Below are positions 39,408 through 50,109 of a stretch of DNA of 64,000 bases, one piece after another. The notes beneath the pieces were generated by a model. The model ran no database searches. It was given only the letters and a program-made list of their open reading frames with translations, and was not told where the DNA came from. The stretch comes from an uncultured Desulfobacteraceae bacterium (GTDB lineage: Bacteria; Desulfobacterota; Desulfobacteria; Desulfobacterales; UBA5852). The first letter of the stretch is position 1; each line of letters begins with the position of its first letter. The position numbers and the translations under genes were made by a program. The stretch is from NCBI GenBank assembly GCA_913060875.1, contig CAJXSL010000004.1, positions 186,001 to 250,000 of the forward strand, given 5' to 3'.

Positions 39408-40520
39408 GTGACACATCAGACCACAGGCCACCGACCACTGAAACTGCTTCTTCTCATGATCCTGTTGTTGACCGCGCTTCCCGGCCTTGCATTGGCTGCC
39501 AATGTCCAGGTACCTAAAACACCGGCTTTGAAAACGGTTAAACCGGTAAACCCGGCCGCCGCCAAGCTGCCCGTCGATAAAACCAAGCTGCAATTGAAAC
39601 GGGAAGCGAAAATCCTATCCATCGATTTCCGCACGGAACCCAGCGGCCAATGGTTGTATACCTACGACATCCGGAACACCGGGGCGGCCAAGCTCGACCT
39701 CCGCAAAGCCCAGTTTAAAACCACCCAGATGCTCAGCAACAATCAACATATTCCTGTCCATACCATCACCCTCCCTTCCGGCACCCCACTCAACCCAGGC
39801 CAGACGGTCTCCGGATGTTATGCCTGGAATCGCTGCGGTAATGCCGCCCGATTGAAGCTGGAAATGGTTTATGAAGGCGCCCTGCTGGACACCAAGGTCG
39901 TCAACGTCCCCCCCCTTGATGTCAAAATCACCAAGGCCGCACTTGACACGCAAAATAATCTTTGGGGGGCTTCGCTCAAAAACAATACCGGCAACGCTGT
40001 CAAGGTGACCGTACGGCTGATCTCCGACATGGCGAAAGCCGGTCAGGAAATCACCAAAGTCGTGCCGGCCAATGGAACCGCCCAATGCAAAGCGCCTTCC
40101 GATCTCAAGACGGCCAAGGGCGTCCAGGTGATTTTCAGGGATGAAAAGCCGGGCAACCGGCCGGGCTATGTGGTGCTGGATACCCACAGCCTGTCGACGG
40201 GAATGGCCATCGGCCATAGCCCAAACTCCAAAGCAATCGTAGAAAGCATTGCCTGGTATCGTGCAACCAAGCAGTGGGTGGCGACAGTAAGAAACCTTAC
40301 CGCCCAGCCGCTGCCGGTAGGCATTGCGGGATGGCCTATGGAAAACGGCACCCAGGGCATGACCACCTGGTCTACCCAGACCATACCGGCCGGCAACACG
40401 GTCCAGTTGATCGGCGATTGGTCCGATTACGCCGTCCCGCCGGGAACCCGATTGAAAGTCCACGTGCTGCTGAAGCCGTCGAACACCAAAGTCCACGAAA
40501 AAATCATTGTGCTGAACTGA
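39408..40520 (+). CDS. Secreted protein with Ig-like/CARDB-type repeats
   Basis: A 370-residue exported protein. A Sec signal peptide (LKLLLLMILLLTALPGLALA) ends near residue 32. The mature part has three or so beta-rich units with the recurring pattern of comparisons (WLYTYDIRNTGAAKL, LWGASLKNNTGNAVKV, WVATVRNLTAQPLPV), typical of CARDB-like domains, and a CYAWNRCG disulfide candidate. Starts at a GTG behind AAAAGGAGAAACCACC. No function can be named. Confidence 0.75.
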   Translation: MTHQTTGHRPLKLLLLMILLLTALPGLALAANVQVPKTPALKTVKPVNPAAAKLPVDKTKLQLKREAKILSIDFRTEPSGQWLYTYDIRNTGAAKLDLRKAQFKTTQMLSNNQHIPVHTITLPSGTPLNPGQTVSGCYAWNRCGNAARLKLEMVYEGALLDTKVVNVPPLDVKITKAALDTQNNLWGASLKNNTGNAVKVTVRLISDMAKAGQEITKVVPANGTAQCKAPSDLKTAKGVQVIFRDEKPGNRPGYVVLDTHSLSTGMAIGHSPNSKAIVESIAWYRATKQWVATVRNLTAQPLPVGIAGWPMENGTQGMTTWSTQTIPAGNTVQLIGDWSDYAVPPGTRLKVHVLLKPSNTKVHEKIIVLN

Positions 40521-41758: not shown

Positions 41759-42283
41759 ATGAAATCCAAATCCATCCGTTCCCTGGCCCTGACCTGTTCC
41801 ACCCTGGCACTGCTGGTTGCCGCCGGCGGCGCCTATGCCGCCCAGCCCGTTGCCCAGTCGGTCAAGAAAATGGCACCGGCAACCGTGAAGGAGATCTCTC
41901 CCCAACGGATCAATTTGCCTTGCGACGTTTCCATCAGCTACATCCAGTATTTCAATTGCCCCTGCAATATCAACCTGGATGCCTATTATGTGGATCAGTA
42001 CATGTCCGTGAAACTCTTCAATCCTTCCAATCTCAGCCCCACCGTCCGACTGACGGTCAAATACTTCGATATCCAGCAGAATCGATTGCAGACCATCACC
42101 AAAAACATCACTTTTTCCGGTCGCGGGAGTAAAAATGTGGCCATCCATCAAAACCACCCCATGCTGATCAAAAAATCCTACGGCGTGCAGGCCAGTGTCC
42201 AATTGACAAGCAGCAATATGCATGATCCGGACATGACCAACAACCAGAAGACCCAGTACACCTGTGGACCGGTGGTGGAATAA
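41759..42283 (+). CDS. Small secreted beta-rich protein
   Basis: A 174-residue exported protein with a signal peptide (SIRSLALTCSTLALLVAAGGAYA, cleaved near residue 28). The mature part has cysteines in CDVSISYIQYFNCPCN and a C-terminal strand ending DPDMTNNQKTQYTC, as in CARDB/Ig-like domains. RBS AAAGGAGAAAAATC. It may be functionally related to the secreted protein at 39408, though ribB lies between them on the other strand. Unknown function. Confidence 0.75.
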   Translation: MKSKSIRSLALTCSTLALLVAAGGAYAAQPVAQSVKKMAPATVKEISPQRINLPCDVSISYIQYFNCPCNINLDAYYVDQYMSVKLFNPSNLSPTVRLTVKYFDIQQNRLQTITKNITFSGRGSKNVAIHQNHPMLIKKSYGVQASVQLTSSNMHDPDMTNNQKTQYTCGPVVE

Positions 42284-43998: not shown

Positions 43999-45522
43999 TC
44001 ACGGATCCGGCGCATCGAGATGCCGACCCCATCCCTTAAATGAATCATCTTTATAGCGCGTCTTTCCCTCATCAACATATCGTTTAACCGTGCGGCGGTC
44101 GACTTTCGTTCGGCGAGCTACAGCCTCATAGGTGCCTAATCGTTCATAAAGGCTGTAACAATAACCGGAAATCAGGCCTTGCATGTCCAAGCGCCCCTGT
44201 TTAACGCCTTTCGCCAGCCAGCCCCCCAAATCTGTGACCGCCTGCGGTTCCGTGCTGTAGGACTCATTGAGCAAAAGGCGCCGCACACATTGCTCGAGTT
44301 CACGGACGTTCCCCGGCCATTCGTAGTCGCGCCCCAGCTCCTTTGAAATCAATCTGCCCAGCTGCGCTGTAAGTTCGGCAGAGGATTTGCCCAGGATTCG
44401 GGTGAGCGTGTGTGCCAGGAGATCTTCTAATTCCTGGGGGGCTTCACGGATGCGCTGGGCAAGACTGGGCACGATAATGACATCCGAACACAGGCGATAG
44501 AAAAAGTCGTTGCGCAGGATGCCATCACCTCGGATCTCCTCCAGAGGTCGGTTGGTTGCCGCAATCACCCTTCCGGAAAAGCGATGGGTCCGATGACTTC
44601 CAACCGGCGAAAACGTACGCTCCTGCAGGACCTGAAGCAGTTTGATTTGTAAGGTGGGATCGACCTCGCCGATTTCATCCAGAAACACAGCCCCGTGGGG
44701 GCTACAGCGATCAAAGCTCCCCATGTAATCTTCAACGGCGCCTGTGAAGGCCCCTTTCTTGTGGCCAAACAGCTCCGATTCTATCAGGGCGGGCGAATAT
44801 TGGGAAAGATTCAGCGCTGTAAAGGAACGGGTAAAACTCTCCACAAACGCCCCTGATTTCGCATCAAAGGGAATATAACCCGACCGCCCGATGGCCACTG
44901 CGGCGGTTCCTTTCCCGGCACCGGTCGGGCCAAGGATCAAGGTGGAAAAATCTTCCATACGATTCCACAGATAGCGTTCGTACCATTTGAGATTATGGGT
45001 AAAAACATTGTTCCATAACCGTTCGCGCAATTTTCGCATACAGGCACTGCAACCGATCAAGTTCTTTTGAATAAAAAAATAGGCGCGCCGCAATTGAAAG
45101 CATAGTTCAAAATAGCGTTGGGCTGTTTCCCGGGAGAATCCCCGTTTCCGTAGAAGTGCGAGAGCTTGAGGCGCAAAGGGGACTTTCAGGCTCTTTTCCC
45201 CCGCTGCCAATTGATCGGCGATCAGGCCATCAAGTTGTGGGATATAGCGATGAAATACATCATACAAAAAAGTGCGCTCCAACAAGGCACGGTCCTTGCC
45301 TTTGAACAACTGAATATTGGCTTGTTTGCGCTTTTCAAGTGCTTTAACACGGTTGCGGACTTCTTGCACGGCCATTTCAACATCTTCCGGCCGGTGGTCG
45401 TTTCCCTGGCGGCCGGCAATACTCAAATCCAGAGCCTTGCGCGCATCACTGAAAGGATTGGCCAAAACAGATTGCCGCACCAACGTGAAAAATTGCCGAT
45501 CTCCGGTCGTCAATCTGGGCAT
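43999..45522 (-). CDS. Sigma-54 activator with unrecognised N-terminal domain
   Basis: A 507-residue bacterial enhancer-binding protein. The AAA+ domain starts near residue 195: Walker A is GPTGAGKGTAA, the sigma-54 loop is GAFTGA in GHKKGAFTGAVED, Walker B is GAVFLDEIGEVD, followed by R-finger and GNVRELEQCV. The C-terminus has a helix-turn-helix (LGTYEAVARRTKVDRRTVKRYVDEG). The first ~190 residues are helical and are not REC, GAF, PAS or V4R; CSACMRKL is the only cysteine pair. The ATG at 45522 follows AAGGAGGATCAA. Divergent from the VIT/vWA-rhombosortase genes, which it probably activates. Confidence 0.9.
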   Translation of the reverse strand: MPRLTTGDRQFFTLVRQSVLANPFSDARKALDLSIAGRQGNDHRPEDVEMAVQEVRNRVKALEKRKQANIQLFKGKDRALLERTFLYDVFHRYIPQLDGLIADQLAAGEKSLKVPFAPQALALLRKRGFSRETAQRYFELCFQLRRAYFFIQKNLIGCSACMRKLRERLWNNVFTHNLKWYERYLWNRMEDFSTLILGPTGAGKGTAAVAIGRSGYIPFDAKSGAFVESFTRSFTALNLSQYSPALIESELFGHKKGAFTGAVEDYMGSFDRCSPHGAVFLDEIGEVDPTLQIKLLQVLQERTFSPVGSHRTHRFSGRVIAATNRPLEEIRGDGILRNDFFYRLCSDVIIVPSLAQRIREAPQELEDLLAHTLTRILGKSSAELTAQLGRLISKELGRDYEWPGNVRELEQCVRRLLLNESYSTEPQAVTDLGGWLAKGVKQGRLDMQGLISGYCYSLYERLGTYEAVARRTKVDRRTVKRYVDEGKTRYKDDSFKGWGRHLDAPDP

Positions 45523-45604
45523 TTGATCCTCCTTGGAAGCATTTTGGTTCCTCAATCACCCTACAATTTCTGGCAACCTCTGATACAAATTTTGGATATT
45601 GAAG

Positions 45605-45621
45605 TATACAATATTTGTATA
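45605..45621 (+). promoter_or_regulatory. 17-bp palindrome, candidate upstream activating site
   Basis: TATACAATATTTGTATA is a perfect 7-3-7 palindrome, 102 bp before the sigma-54 promoter at 45707 and 83 bp before the divergent activator gene. An additional ATACAAAT half-site is at 45583-45590. Confidence 0.55.
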
Positions 45622-45706
45622 TAGCATTCCAGAAACAATTTCCTCCAAAAAGCTATCGACATAAATATTATATATAAAAACAAGCTATTATGGGAAAATG
45701 AGCCAT

Positions 45707-45723
45707 TTGGCACAATTCTTGGT
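45707..45723 (+). promoter_or_regulatory. Sigma-54 promoter of the VIT/vWA-rhombosortase operon
   Basis: TTGGCACAATTCTTGGT matches the -24 element TTGGCAC exactly and has TTGG in place of TTGC at -12 with correct spacing. The downstream start codon is at 45824. Confidence 0.65.
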
Positions 45724-45823
45724 TTTCCGGCTTTCTGGTATCGACGCTGAAACTGTCGCCATTGTCAGTGTAGGTACTCGAACGGATTAGTCCTGACGAA
45801 CAAACAAGCCAAGGAGATGAACC

Positions 45824-47944
45824 ATGCGAATCCATGTTTGTGCCATCCGAAAGCGGAGCTCACTCCCGTTGCTGATCCTGGCGGGTATATTGCTGCTATG
45901 CGTCCCGATGCTCCCCAATAGTGCTCGCGGCGCCGGACTCCTCATTGCCGACGGCGGCTTTGGCGGCGTACTGGAAATCGAGGAGCACGACGTCCGGACA
46001 ACGATTAACAACGGCATCGCCGTAACCCATGTGACGCAGGTTTTTCGAAACACCGAGAATCGACAGGTCGAGGCTTTGTACACCTTTCCGGTGCCCAAAC
46101 ACGCATCGGTTTCTAATTTCAGCATGTGGATCAATGGAAAAGAAATGGTGGGAGAGGTTCTGGAGAAAGAGCGCGCCCGAAAAATCTACAACAGCTATAA
46201 GCAGCAGCGCCGCCCGAAAGATCCAGGGCTGCTGGAGCAAAAAGATTTCAAAACCTTTGAAATGCGCATATTTCCGATCAATCCGGGCGCTAAGCAAAAG
46301 GTTCAGATCACCTATTATCAGGAACTGGATATCGACCACGATCAAGTCACTTATGTTTATCCGCTGGCTACCGTAACTCGGCGTGATATAAACACCCGCA
46401 CCATCGGCCGGTTCGCATTCCAGTTAGAAATTAAATCCGCCATACCGATCGCTTCTATCGGGAGCCCCAGCCACCCCAGCGACTTCGTCGTGGCGAATCA
46501 TACCGACACCTACAAAATGGCCAGCCTGGAACAGCGGAGCGGCTCTCTTTCCTCAGACATTGTCCTTCACTACGATTTAAGACGGCCCAACTCCGGAATC
46601 GACCTGGTAACGTCCCGCGCCAAAGGGCAAGATGGTTTTTTTCTGATGACGATCACCGCCGGGGATGAATTGTCCCGAGCAGACTTTGGCATGGATTACG
46701 TCTTTTTGCTGGATATATCCGGCAGCATGGCAGACGATGCCAAGTTGGCCATCTCCCGTCAATCCCTGTTTGCCTTTATCGACGAACTCGACGCCCGGGA
46801 CCGTTTCGACGTGATGACGTTTAATGTGGAGCCCAACATGGTCTTCAGCACTTTGCGTTCCTCAGATTCGGAATCCAAGGCCACGGCCCGAACATTTCTC
46901 GGCTCGCAGTCGGCAAAGGGCGGAACCATTTTGGCCCCCGCCCTGACGACAGCCTACAAGTACGGCAATCCGGATCGTCCCTTGAACGTTGTGATCTTAA
47001 GCGACGGGATGACCGAACAACGGGAGCGACAGGAACTGGTGCGTCTCATCAGCCAACGCCCCAAACACGCCAGGGTTTTCTGTATTGGTATCGGCAACGA
47101 AGTCAATCGTCCCCTGCTGGAGCAAATGGCCGAAGACTCCGGAGGTTTGGCAGCATTTATTTCCCGGGGAGACGATTTCAAACGTCAGGCCAAGGCGTTT
47201 CGAAGAAAACTGTTGCGGCCGGCAGCCACCGAACTGGGCCTCAAGTTCAACAACGTTGATGTCTATGACGTAGTGCCCGAAAAATTGCCAAATCTTTACC
47301 ATGGTGCTCCGGTTAAGGTATACGGCCGCTACCGGGGACAAGGCCAAATTCCGGTCACCCTTCACGGCCATGTCCAGGGCCGGTTCATGGAACAAAATGT
47401 AGTGCTCGACTTCCCTGACCTTGATACCGACAACCCGGAGATCGAGCGCATGTGGGCGTTGAAGCGCATCGATAATCTGCTCAGGCAGAATAGAAAGGGC
47501 CACAATCAAAAAAATGTTGTTGACGAAGTCATCCGTCTAGGCGAACTCTACGCGATCGTGACAGAATACACCTCATTCTTGGTGTTGGAAAACGATGCAG
47601 AATATAAGCGCTGGAAGATTGATCGCCGCAACCTTACGCGACTCGACCGTGATCGTGCGGCCCAGGCCAAACGGCAAACGCAATTGGATACCATTCGAAA
47701 CAAAGCGATGGTGAACATCGGGCCGCAGTCCATCGCCATGCATAAAGCCTCCCAGACAAAATCCGGTACGGCACCCAAAAAGAACCAGTCCAATACGCAA
47801 CCGGCAGCGCCGCCGTCTTTATCCTCCCGGCCCAGCAGCCAAAGTCAAAATTTCAATTTCGCTGGCGGCAGTGGTTCTGCCCCTGTGGGTCCCCTATTTG
47901 TCGGACTTGCCTATTATTTGACACGCCGCCGAAAAAAGCAATGA
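45824..47944 (+). CDS. VIT and vWA domain protein with GlyGly-CTERM tail
   Basis: A 706-residue exported protein. Signal peptide at residues 1-36; a VIT domain at about 40-165 (VTHVTQVFRNTENRQVEALYTFPVP); a vWA domain from about 290 with the MIDAS motif D297-I-S-G-S301 and DGMTEQRER; then a low-complexity Ser/Pro/Gln linker. The tail AGGSGSAPVGPLFVGL... ending TRRRKKQ fits the GlyGly-CTERM pattern: Gly-Gly, short hydrophobic stretch, basic end. The rhombosortase gene follows directly, so this is its presumed substrate. RBS AAGGAGATGAACC. Confidence 0.88.
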   Translation: MRIHVCAIRKRSSLPLLILAGILLLCVPMLPNSARGAGLLIADGGFGGVLEIEEHDVRTTINNGIAVTHVTQVFRNTENRQVEALYTFPVPKHASVSNFSMWINGKEMVGEVLEKERARKIYNSYKQQRRPKDPGLLEQKDFKTFEMRIFPINPGAKQKVQITYYQELDIDHDQVTYVYPLATVTRRDINTRTIGRFAFQLEIKSAIPIASIGSPSHPSDFVVANHTDTYKMASLEQRSGSLSSDIVLHYDLRRPNSGIDLVTSRAKGQDGFFLMTITAGDELSRADFGMDYVFLLDISGSMADDAKLAISRQSLFAFIDELDARDRFDVMTFNVEPNMVFSTLRSSDSESKATARTFLGSQSAKGGTILAPALTTAYKYGNPDRPLNVVILSDGMTEQRERQELVRLISQRPKHARVFCIGIGNEVNRPLLEQMAEDSGGLAAFISRGDDFKRQAKAFRRKLLRPAATELGLKFNNVDVYDVVPEKLPNLYHGAPVKVYGRYRGQGQIPVTLHGHVQGRFMEQNVVLDFPDLDTDNPEIERMWALKRIDNLLRQNRKGHNQKNVVDEVIRLGELYAIVTEYTSFLVLENDAEYKRWKIDRRNLTRLDRDRAAQAKRQTQLDTIRNKAMVNIGPQSIAMHKASQTKSGTAPKKNQSNTQPAAPPSLSSRPSSQSQNFNFAGGSGSAPVGPLFVGLAYYLTRRRKKQ

Positions 47945-47954
47945 CGGTTGATCG

Positions 47955-47987
47955 AAGGTCGGCCGCTGGGGCCGGCCTTACGCTTTT
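47955..47987 (+). terminator. Attenuator-like hairpin between VIT/vWA gene and rhombosortase
   Basis: AAGGTCGGCC (47955-47964) pairs with GGCCGGCCTT (47970-47979), one G-U pair, then ACGCTTTT. It could cut most transcripts after the substrate gene so that less protease than substrate is made. Confidence 0.6.
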
Positions 47988-48014
47988 CAAACCTTCAGGC
48001 CAGGAAGATACTGA

Positions 48015-48674
48015 ATGCATAAAACCGTGTTTATCCAAGGCCACAGGCCTGCGCAATCAGGTGCATCCACCGTCGTGCAGCTGCTTCGCCAGCATTGGGA
48101 TATAGTGGTGATTTCGCTCCTTCTGGCACTGTCGAACCGGTCCCTGCTAAATGGCTGTGCCAACAGTGAATTAATTTACCACCCCCTTGCCGTAGGGGCT
48201 GGCGAATGGTGGCGCCTGTTGAGCTATCCATTGGCGCACCTTTCCTGGTATCATCTTTTGCTTGATGCCGGGGCTTTTTATCTTCTGTACACCGGTTTGG
48301 GGGAAATGCCTAAACTGCGAAAAATCCTGATTTTGATGATATGCAGTTCCGCCAGCCTGGTGTTCGCTGTATACTTAGGGACGGCTCAGGCGTTTGGACT
48401 GGCAGGCCTTTCCGGATTGGATCACGGATTGATGGCATTTTCCGCTTTGGAAATGATTCGCTCAGATCGAAACCGTAAGCTTGGCCTGTCCTGCATCGCC
48501 TTGGTCCTAGCCAAAAGTATCTTCGAGTTGGTGACCGGAGAAGTATTTTTTGTGGCTCTGCATCGTGATCTCTGTGGAATACCGGTAGCGGCCTCCCACT
48601 TGGGAGGTGTTCTGGCCGGCATGGTATCATTTTGGGTGCTGGGTAGAGAAATTCCGGTTAAAGCCTGGACATAA
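48015..48674 (+). CDS. Rhombosortase (rhomboid-family intramembrane serine protease)
   Basis: A 219-residue membrane protein with about six hydrophobic segments. Catalytic serine S133 is in the GLSGLDHG motif (rhomboid GxSG) and the catalytic histidine H195 in AASHLGGVLAG; HLSWYHLLLDAGAFYLLY supplies the family's H/N region. Rhombosortases cut GlyGly-CTERM tails and, in the characterised Vibrio case, the new C-terminus is then modified and surface-attached. The VIT/vWA protein immediately upstream has such a tail. Acts in the inner membrane. Confidence 0.85.
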   Translation: MHKTVFIQGHRPAQSGASTVVQLLRQHWDIVVISLLLALSNRSLLNGCANSELIYHPLAVGAGEWWRLLSYPLAHLSWYHLLLDAGAFYLLYTGLGEMPKLRKILILMICSSASLVFAVYLGTAQAFGLAGLSGLDHGLMAFSALEMIRSDRNRKLGLSCIALVLAKSIFELVTGEVFFVALHRDLCGIPVAASHLGGVLAGMVSFWVLGREIPVKAWT

Positions 48675-48729
48675 AGTCTCAGGGAAGGATCCTCCACTTA
48701 TACCCGTAAACCAGGAAGAAGAATAGAAA

Positions 48730-50109
48730 ATGCCGAAAATGGATCATTCGAATAAAGACGCAACGGATAGGCGCAATACCCCCCACAACAACAATGGCGG
48801 ACTATGGGCCCGAGCAGCTCGGCTGGCCGAACAAACACCCCCTTCCCGCAACCGGTATGTTGATTTTCTCCGAGCGGTTTCCATACTGGCGGTAGTGGTG
48901 GGGCACTGGATTATGGCCGCGCCGTACTATGAGCATGGCAAGCCGCAAATGTGGCACTTGCTGGCGGTTTCACCATGGTCCCAGTGGCTCACCTGGTTTT
49001 TTCAGGTTATGCCGGTTTTCTTTTTTGTAGGCGGCTACGCCAATTTAACGTCATGGGAAGCTTGCCAGCGTCGCGGTCAAGGGTATGGGCACTGGCTGGC
49101 TGGTCGCCTGCAACGGCTCCTGCAACCGGTCTTACCGCTATTGGGGATTTGGCTTTTCCTGGCTTTGTTCGCCAAAGGGTTGGGGGTGCCACAGGGCTTT
49201 TTGCAGGTCGGTTCACGCATCGCTCTGGTACCCACCTGGTTTCTGGCTGTCTATATTCTCGTGGTGCTCTTCGTTCCGGTTACGGTAGCGGCATGGAATC
49301 AATTCGGGATTTGGAGTGCAATTGTCCTGATGGCCGCGGCCGCGATGGTGGACGTAGCATTTTTCACCGCAGATCTGAAGCTTCTGGGTTGGCTCAATTA
49401 TTTATTCGTTTGGTTAGCCGTGCACCAGCTTGGATTTGCATGGCGCAAGGGCATGTTTGCATCGGCCTGGAAAAGCTTTTTACTGTTCCCCACCGGCATT
49501 CTTGCACTTCTCGCTATGGTCTCCTGGGGGCCTTATCCCTTAAGTCTCGTTGGAGTTCCCACGGATGCCATCAGCAACACCCTTCCGCCCAAGCTGCCTT
49601 TATTGGCGCTGGGTATCGCCCAAATCGGCCTCCTGATGAGTTTACAGAAACCAGCCCGCAGATGGCTTGACCGCCCGCTGCCATGGACTGGCACCGTCGT
49701 GATAAACGGCATGATCATGACGTTATTCCTGTGGCACAGTACGGCCATGATACTTTTGATCGGCTTGGGGTTTCTAGTCCAACCAGCCGTTTTCGGCACG
49801 ACTCCCGGGTCGGTGGCCTGGTGGATACTGCGACCCGCTTGGGGGATGGCCTTCGCTGCGGCAACACTGCCATTTCTCTCGGCCTTCAGCCGTTTTGAAA
49901 ACGCGGGGAGCGCTTCAGCACAACCGGCCCGGAGCGTCTGGCGTCTTTATTTCTGCTGCACGCTCACTTGCGGAGGGTTGGGCTACCTTGCACTAAAGGG
50001 AATCGGGAGCGGGTCTCACTGGTCTTTTGAAGCCTTTTCTATTGCTTTACCCTTTATCGCGACAACCTTTGCGGGCTTTGGGCCGCTGAGCCATCGCAAA
50101 TTCAGATAG
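48730..50109 (+). CDS. Acyltransferase-3 family membrane protein
   Basis: A 459-residue membrane protein with ten or more hydrophobic segments and the acyltransferase_3 N-terminus (RYVDFLRAVSILAVVVGHWIMAAP, conserved Arg and His). Such proteins move acyl groups onto extracytoplasmic sugars or other groups. It follows the rhombosortase gene by 55 bp in the same direction. It might modify the lipid or glycan to which the cut substrate is joined; that link is inference. Confidence 0.85.
   Translation: MPKMDHSNKDATDRRNTPHNNNGGLWARAARLAEQTPPSRNRYVDFLRAVSILAVVVGHWIMAAPYYEHGKPQMWHLLAVSPWSQWLTWFFQVMPVFFFVGGYANLTSWEACQRRGQGYGHWLAGRLQRLLQPVLPLLGIWLFLALFAKGLGVPQGFLQVGSRIALVPTWFLAVYILVVLFVPVTVAAWNQFGIWSAIVLMAAAAMVDVAFFTADLKLLGWLNYLFVWLAVHQLGFAWRKGMFASAWKSFLLFPTGILALLAMVSWGPYPLSLVGVPTDAISNTLPPKLPLLALGIAQIGLLMSLQKPARRWLDRPLPWTGTVVINGMIMTLFLWHSTAMILLIGLGFLVQPAVFGTTPGSVAWWILRPAWGMAFAAATLPFLSAFSRFENAGSASAQPARSVWRLYFCCTLTCGGLGYLALKGIGSGSHWSFEAFSIALPFIATTFAGFGPLSHRKFR

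Follow-up and report, generated by a model that had tools for sequence, protein, structure and literature searches.

A 64,000-nucleotide stretch of DNA from an uncultured Desulfobacteraceae bacterium (contig CAJXSL010000004.1 of assembly GCA_913060875.1; hereafter the window) contains a compact locus that combines a sigma-54 enhancer-binding protein (EBP), a secreted VIT/vWA protein, a rhombosortase and an acyltransferase-3 family membrane protein. The EBP gene (43999–45555, minus strand) encodes a Sigma54_activat domain (PF00158, 1.2e-38) and no receiver domain, and is divergent from the gene for the 706-amino-acid VIT/vWA protein (45824–47944, plus strand; VIT PF08487, 2.4e-33; VWA_3 PF13768, 8.3e-21), the proposed rhombosortase substrate, whose C-terminal sorting tail NFNFAGGSGSAPVGPLFVGLAYYLTRRRKKQ (47849–47941, plus strand) comprises a G-S motif, a short hydrophobic stretch and a basic cluster. 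The rhombosortase follows on the plus strand (48015–48674; Rhomboid domain; TIGR03902 score of 105.1 bits against a cut-off of 84), with the acyltransferase-3 gene (48730–50109; Acyl_transf_3 PF01757, 6.1e-22) 56 bp downstream on the same strand. Between the EBP and VIT genes lie the dyad ATACAATATTTGTAT (45606–45620, no strand assigned), a proposed EBP enhancer site of the form RTAC-N7-GTAY that recurs upstream of related VIT genes, and a sigma-54 type promoter, TGGCAC-N5-TTGG (45708–45722, plus strand), which starts 102 bp after the dyad start. The original prediction, made from the letters of the window, had named the four genes, a palindrome and a -24/-12 promoter; each gene proved to be a reading frame with a profile match, and both DNA elements are present and far beyond chance across related loci. 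The host genome is 5.88 Mb and 99.7% complete. Searches for sigma-70 promoters and terminators gave only chance-level matches, and a plasmid origin is unsupported, the rhombosortase having no match in a plasmid collection. Sequence comparison indicates that the divergent EBP, the secreted VIT/vWA protein and the rhombosortase form a conserved core cassette.

Residues Ser133 (catalytic; GLSGLDH, codon 48411–48413), His137 (family-specific) and His195 (catalytic; codon 48597–48599) of the rhombosortase are invariant across 22 sequences, in agreement with the SGxxH motif of the family. It is the only protein in its genome above the TIGR03902 cut-off; five other genomes of the same taxonomic family contain none, and a rhombosortase above the cut-off is present in 41 of 389 genomes of the order. 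The VIT/vWA partner begins with a signal-peptide-like segment and carries a MIDAS-like DISGS motif in its vWA domain, both recognized by eye. Its closest named NCBIfam model is TIGR03788, matched at 250.7 bits and thus under the cut-off of 551.65, and the protein lacks an LPXTG motif.

The sorting tail had been predicted to be a GlyGly-CTERM tail, a name that is right in architecture, because the three parts (a glycine-rich motif without Cys, a hydrophobic helix and a basic end) are present at the extreme C-terminus, but not by the curated model. TIGR03501, the 22-position GlyGly-CTERM model, has no match in the VIT/vWA protein or the whole genome at E up to 10, nor does it match any of five sister proteins at E up to 1, and no other NCBIfam tail model matches NFNFAGGSGSAPVGPLFVGLAYYLTRRRKKQ. 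The tails of sister proteins encoded beside related rhombosortases form one class with the consensus GSGPVGPLFVGxAxWLRRRKxxK, an unmodelled class with the pattern G-[ST]-G-P-V-G-P-L-F...WLRRRK. Because TIGR03501 is too insensitive as a genome-wide probe for further tails, missing even the tail in the window, we used instead a model built from 19 sister tails (alignment A1) that share the GSGPVGPLF core. In the host genome this model returned one significant match (E 7.5e-14; runner-up 1.3), and a search for other GlyGly-CTERM tails, a check named beforehand, thus revealed no second one with either model. Across 22 genomes with this kind of rhombosortase the model found one strong copy each, with nothing further in 21 of them and an extra weak match (E 0.0017, in a 208-amino-acid frame) in the 22nd, G114; eight control genomes gave no matches. 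In three genomes (G027, G088 and G151) the VIT gene is unlinked to the rhombosortase and the tails lay outside the model, yet the model still detected them (E 1e-12 to 1e-16), and the proteins that bear them are VIT/vWA proteins. A single tail with a single rhombosortase in the host genome, and a single tail in each of 21 of the 22 genomes, support the predicted dedicated enzyme–substrate pair. Other loci in the order have other targets, including the rhombotarget lipoprotein TIGR04179 (L051) and VIT proteins whose tails are of the GGGGGAIDP or GGSVGG kind.

The cassette is spread across Desulfobacterota and is also present in records labelled Nitrospirota, Planctomycetota, Kiritimatiellota/Pontiellaceae, Verrucomicrobiota and Chlamydiota (six or more phyla), where the GPVG-tailed VIT gene likewise adjoins the rhombosortase; single phylum assignments may be wrong because most records are metagenome-assembled. 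A scan of named genomes contributed 44 loci, 17 of which duplicated loci already in the set. Where a GPVG-tail entry extends at least 1.5 kb upstream, the rhombosortase stands next to the VIT gene in 33 of 33 and a divergent EBP lies within 2 kb in 25 of 33; where the VIT frame is split in two (L058 and L155), the tail-bearing part was counted. The culturable sulfate reducer Desulfosarcina cetonica JCM 12296 also has the cassette, although both its VIT frame and its EBP frame are split in L058/L154. The synteny expected for four gene families therefore holds for the EBP, VIT/vWA protein and rhombosortase, which stay together, but not for the acyltransferase-3 protein. A second cassette type, seen at L052, L060, L072 and L081, combines an EBP of a separate, more divergent clade with a VIT protein bearing a GGGGGAIDPLTG tail and a rhombosortase, and has the same dyad upstream. 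One locus (L068:6960-9119, G352) holds a rhombosortase-like gene of the GPVG-cassette type and, nearly back to back with it, a second one of a different type. At L065, L074 and L080 two conserved genes, for a HEAT-repeat-like and an HD-domain protein (domain assignments checked for L080 alone), follow the rhombosortase, and the VIT substrate is encoded elsewhere in the genome.

The intergenic DNA carries a shared regulatory arrangement. The dyad RTAC-N7-GTAY is present in 10 of 17 EBP–VIT intergenic regions against 0.43 expected, spacings of N3–N6 and N8–N10 yielding zero or one, and in 1 of 24 regions upstream of EBPs with other neighbours. Among 50 VIT upstream regions, 18 contain the dyad (1.7 expected), 21 contain the promoter pattern [TC]GGCA[CT]-N5-TTG (0.35 expected) and 10 contain both (0.01 expected). 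The distance from the dyad to the -24 element is 102–103 in four loci including the window, 110–126 in five and 318 in one, so that the two main spacings lie about two helical turns apart; this geometry of upstream site and -24/-12 promoter, predicted from sequence, is conserved across loci. In the window, TGGCAC occupies 45708–45713 and a G replaces the usual C at -12, and the loose -24/-12 match, taken as a single sequence, is not beyond chance. RpoN is encoded in the genome. Dyad and promoter in excess of chance, their shared spacing and the presence of RpoN are consistent with the predicted sigma-54 control. A regulon search of the host genome for the dyad with a -24 element produced five matches, whereas the reversed pattern used as a control produced more, and this locus alone has a proper -12 and the shared spacing; the idea of a wider dyad regulon was dropped.

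The EBP consists of an all-helical N-terminal domain (residues ~12–195), an AAA+ domain with a GAFTGA loop and a C-terminal helix-turn-helix, and its GAFTGA region is intact and conserved in 36 relatives (36-row alignment). Conservation suggests that translation starts at the ATG at 45522 (M12). The AlphaFold model has a pLDDT of 89.7, and its AAA+ part matches FleQ/NtrC relatives in the PDB; the helical N-terminal domain (pLDDT 89.5) gave no convincing match in Pfam, sequence-level PDB or Foldseek PDB searches. A Cys-x-x-Cys motif in this domain was considered as a sensor and dropped, the first Cys being mostly substituted in relatives. In a tree of the family, cassette EBPs cluster more than shuffled labels do. 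The host genome encodes a second EBP of the same family (L120:12512-16025, C1:315601 region), adjoining a class-3 lipase and an alpha/beta hydrolase, an arrangement that looks common to another species of the genus (L121). In G151 (L216:735-4504) the unlinked VIT gene is divergent from a different, NtrC-like activator across a gap of ~40 bp, which suggests a regulator swap.

Lipid genes recur around both the cassettes and the EBPs. A gene that fuses a major facilitator superfamily (MFS) flippase to a PlsC acyltransferase (LplT-PlsC) directly follows the rhombosortase at L055, L061, L062 and L070, and a version with an added AMP-binding domain (LplT-Aas type) adjoins cassettes L170, L182 and L157 and the rhombosortase locus L175; one form or the other is found at 8 of the 33 cassette entries. 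Of the 46 LplT-PlsC genes among the matches listed, 18 lie within 6 kb of an EBP, and 34 genomes have both kinds of gene among these matches. EBPs that lack a cassette have MFS-PlsC fusions, PlsC acyltransferases, a class-3 lipase together with an alpha/beta hydrolase, and a ketoacyl-synthase/acyltransferase megaprotein among their neighbours. At L132–L138, the genes next to EBP paralogues encode very large ketoacyl-synthase/nitronate-monooxygenase proteins together with small PlsC acyltransferases, which may form a lipid pathway resembling polyunsaturated fatty acid or polyketide synthesis under sigma-54 control. In the window, the acyltransferase-3 gene is probably co-transcribed with the rhombosortase; it belongs to another family than PlsC, with which it may conceivably share a role. 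Upstream of the cassette, the window also encodes two small exported-looking proteins of 370 and 174 amino acids (39408–40520 and 41759–42283) with signal-peptide-like starts.

Read from its sequence, the locus is probably best explained as a dedicated enzyme–substrate pair switched by sigma-54. A signal acting on the helical N-terminal domain would prompt the EBP, bound at the RTAC-N7-GTAY dyad, to activate the sigma-54 promoter ~102 bp downstream, and the VIT/vWA protein and rhombosortase would be made together. The signal peptide would export the VIT/vWA protein, a short C-terminal segment would hold it in the inner membrane, and the rhombosortase would cleave its tail near the glycine motif. 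The Vibrio cholerae rhombosortase RssP leaves its substrate VesB joined to a glycerophosphoethanolamine-containing moiety and offers a precedent for export by a type II secretion system (T2SS; PMC6219818). By analogy, the enzyme in the window would join the new C-terminus to a glycerophosphoethanolamine lipid, and the VIT/vWA protein would end lipid-anchored, possibly moved to the surface by a T2SS-like machine; because the Vibrio enzyme attaches its substrate in this way, we infer an inducible lipid-linked surface anchor. Since LplT-PlsC/Aas and other lipid genes accompany the regulator family as well as many sister cassettes, altered or damaged envelope phospholipids are the probable trigger. 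Both lipid attachment and a lipid trigger are less certain than the regulated pair itself.

Several observations weigh against this interpretation. The dyad was defined on order-level loci before it was tried on others, and the fair test is therefore the set fetched afterwards, in which its presence in 7 of 22 upstream regions against ~0.75 expected (scaled from the shuffle rate) speaks for the interpretation. The exact dyad is missing from many cassettes, some of them with an EBP; the -12 element is often TTG[AGT] rather than TTGC; and in G027 and G151 the unlinked VIT genes carry neither dyad nor promoter element. Five cassettes (L157, L159, L169, L177 and L180) have no adjoining EBP, and cassette EBPs do not form one clade relative to EBPs with other neighbours; regulators have therefore been swapped or re-used. 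No LplT-PlsC gene was found in the host genome (E 1e-80), where the acyltransferase-3 gene occupies the slot. Finally, the genome encodes secretin and GspE homologues that score below curated T2SS cut-offs. One cluster holds a secretin, an ExeA-like ATPase, a GspE-like and a GspF-like gene (the ExeA-like and GspF-like assignments by eye only), and export of the VIT/vWA protein by a T2SS is possible but not established because these components fall below the cut-offs.

A more ambitious form of the regulated-pair interpretation, which we advance only tentatively, joins anchoring and lysolipid repair into one regulated pathway. The EBP would sense phospholipid damage, for example a build-up of lysophosphatidylethanolamine, and would switch on a module that protects the cell, LplT-Aas type lipid repair in some genomes and a lipid-anchored VIT/vWA protein made by a dedicated rhombosortase in others, with phosphatidylethanolamine or its lyso form as a possible acceptor for the rhombosortase. 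Anchoring and lysophospholipid turnover could plausibly be connected, by analogy, because the V. cholerae enzyme leaves VesB on a glycerophosphoethanolamine-containing moiety. Rhomboids are hydrolases by default, and the enzyme could instead simply free the VIT/vWA protein into the periplasm or medium without a lipid, the lipid-gene neighbours being incidental. Release of part of VesB (PMC6219818) and the failure to find LplT-PlsC in the host genome at E 1e-80 fit such plain cleavage, yet the one Vibrio rhombosortase substrate studied is documented to carry the glycerophosphoethanolamine modification and lipid-repair genes recur beside cassettes in several phyla, which makes this explanation unlikely. 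We similarly doubt that the EBP chiefly regulates lipid metabolism, with the VIT–rhombosortase pair one of several unrelated gene sets that landed beside it. Of the 389 genomes of the order, 171 have its N-terminal family, the majority of these without a rhombosortase above the cut-off, its neighbours include PlsC acyltransferases, lipase and ketoacyl-synthase proteins, and its tree mixes these contexts; the dyad, however, is specific to VIT cassettes (10 of 17 versus 1 of 24), and EBP, VIT protein and rhombosortase are kept together across phyla. Least probable is a four-gene unit whose acyltransferase-3 protein would modify either the VIT/vWA protein or its anchor: the gene lies closely behind the rhombosortase on the same strand and other cassettes hold a PlsC-type acyltransferase in that slot, but PF01757 and PlsC are different families, PF01757 enzymes usually act on sugars, and the membrane transferase that the original prediction counted as part of the unit is not a core component, because no homologue stands beside any other rhombosortase examined.

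The cassette thus suggests a self-contained, switchable means of attaching one protein to the cell envelope. In environmental bacteria it provides a compact rhombosortase system of one enzyme and one substrate with a switch of its own, useful for working out what these enzymes anchor and on which lipid, and it adds a sorting-tail class missed by current models, a DNA operator and the uncharacterised sensor domain of a sigma-54 regulator family. It also makes a possible connection of protein anchoring with lysophospholipid repair open to test.

Four known systems share part of this design. The proteobacterial dedicated sortase (TIGR03784 with its TIGR03788 target) likewise pairs a related VIT/vWA target with a dedicated adjacent sorting enzyme, but it uses a transpeptidase sortase and an LPXTG tail, whereas the cassette uses a rhomboid protease and a glycine tail and its target scores far below the TIGR03788 cut-off (250.7 versus 551.65). 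The TIGR04179 rhombotarget gene, found in the same order (L051), is also adjacent to a rhombosortase; unlike the cassette substrate, it encodes a small lipoprotein with a TGGGSL tail and no VIT/vWA domains. Lysophospholipid repair by LplT and Aas, a pair in E. coli (PMC11416262) and in Pseudomonas aeruginosa PA3267 a single polypeptide of LplT with the acyltransferase part of Aas (PMC8926400), joins an MFS flippase to a PlsC acyltransferase as do the genes beside several cassettes and EBPs, which resemble PA3267; no connection with a rhombosortase or a VIT/vWA protein was apparent in either paper. The fourth is the rhombosortase/GlyGly-CTERM system itself, which shares the enzyme subfamily, the catalytic motif with its stacking His, the tripartite tail and, for single targets, gene adjacency (PMC3237569). 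The one-substrate arrangement, which the original prediction considered undescribed, is not new: Haft and Varghese (2011) described adjacent single-target rhombosortase pairs, delta-proteobacteria included, as well as VIT/vWA proteins with GlyGly-CTERM, LPXTG or PEP-CTERM tails, the GlyGly-CTERM ones in their Figure 3C (PMC3237569). By contrast, Vibrio has six targets per rhombosortase and the cassette one, the GSGPVGPLF tail class escapes TIGR03501, and the passages of PMC3237569 consulted make no mention of a dedicated sigma-54 regulator and operator; a literature search covering few subscription journals did not find 'rhombosortase' and 'sigma-54' together. What is new is the definition, across several phyla, of a cassette that brings together a regulator, an operator and a tail class of its own with a lipid-repair neighbourhood.

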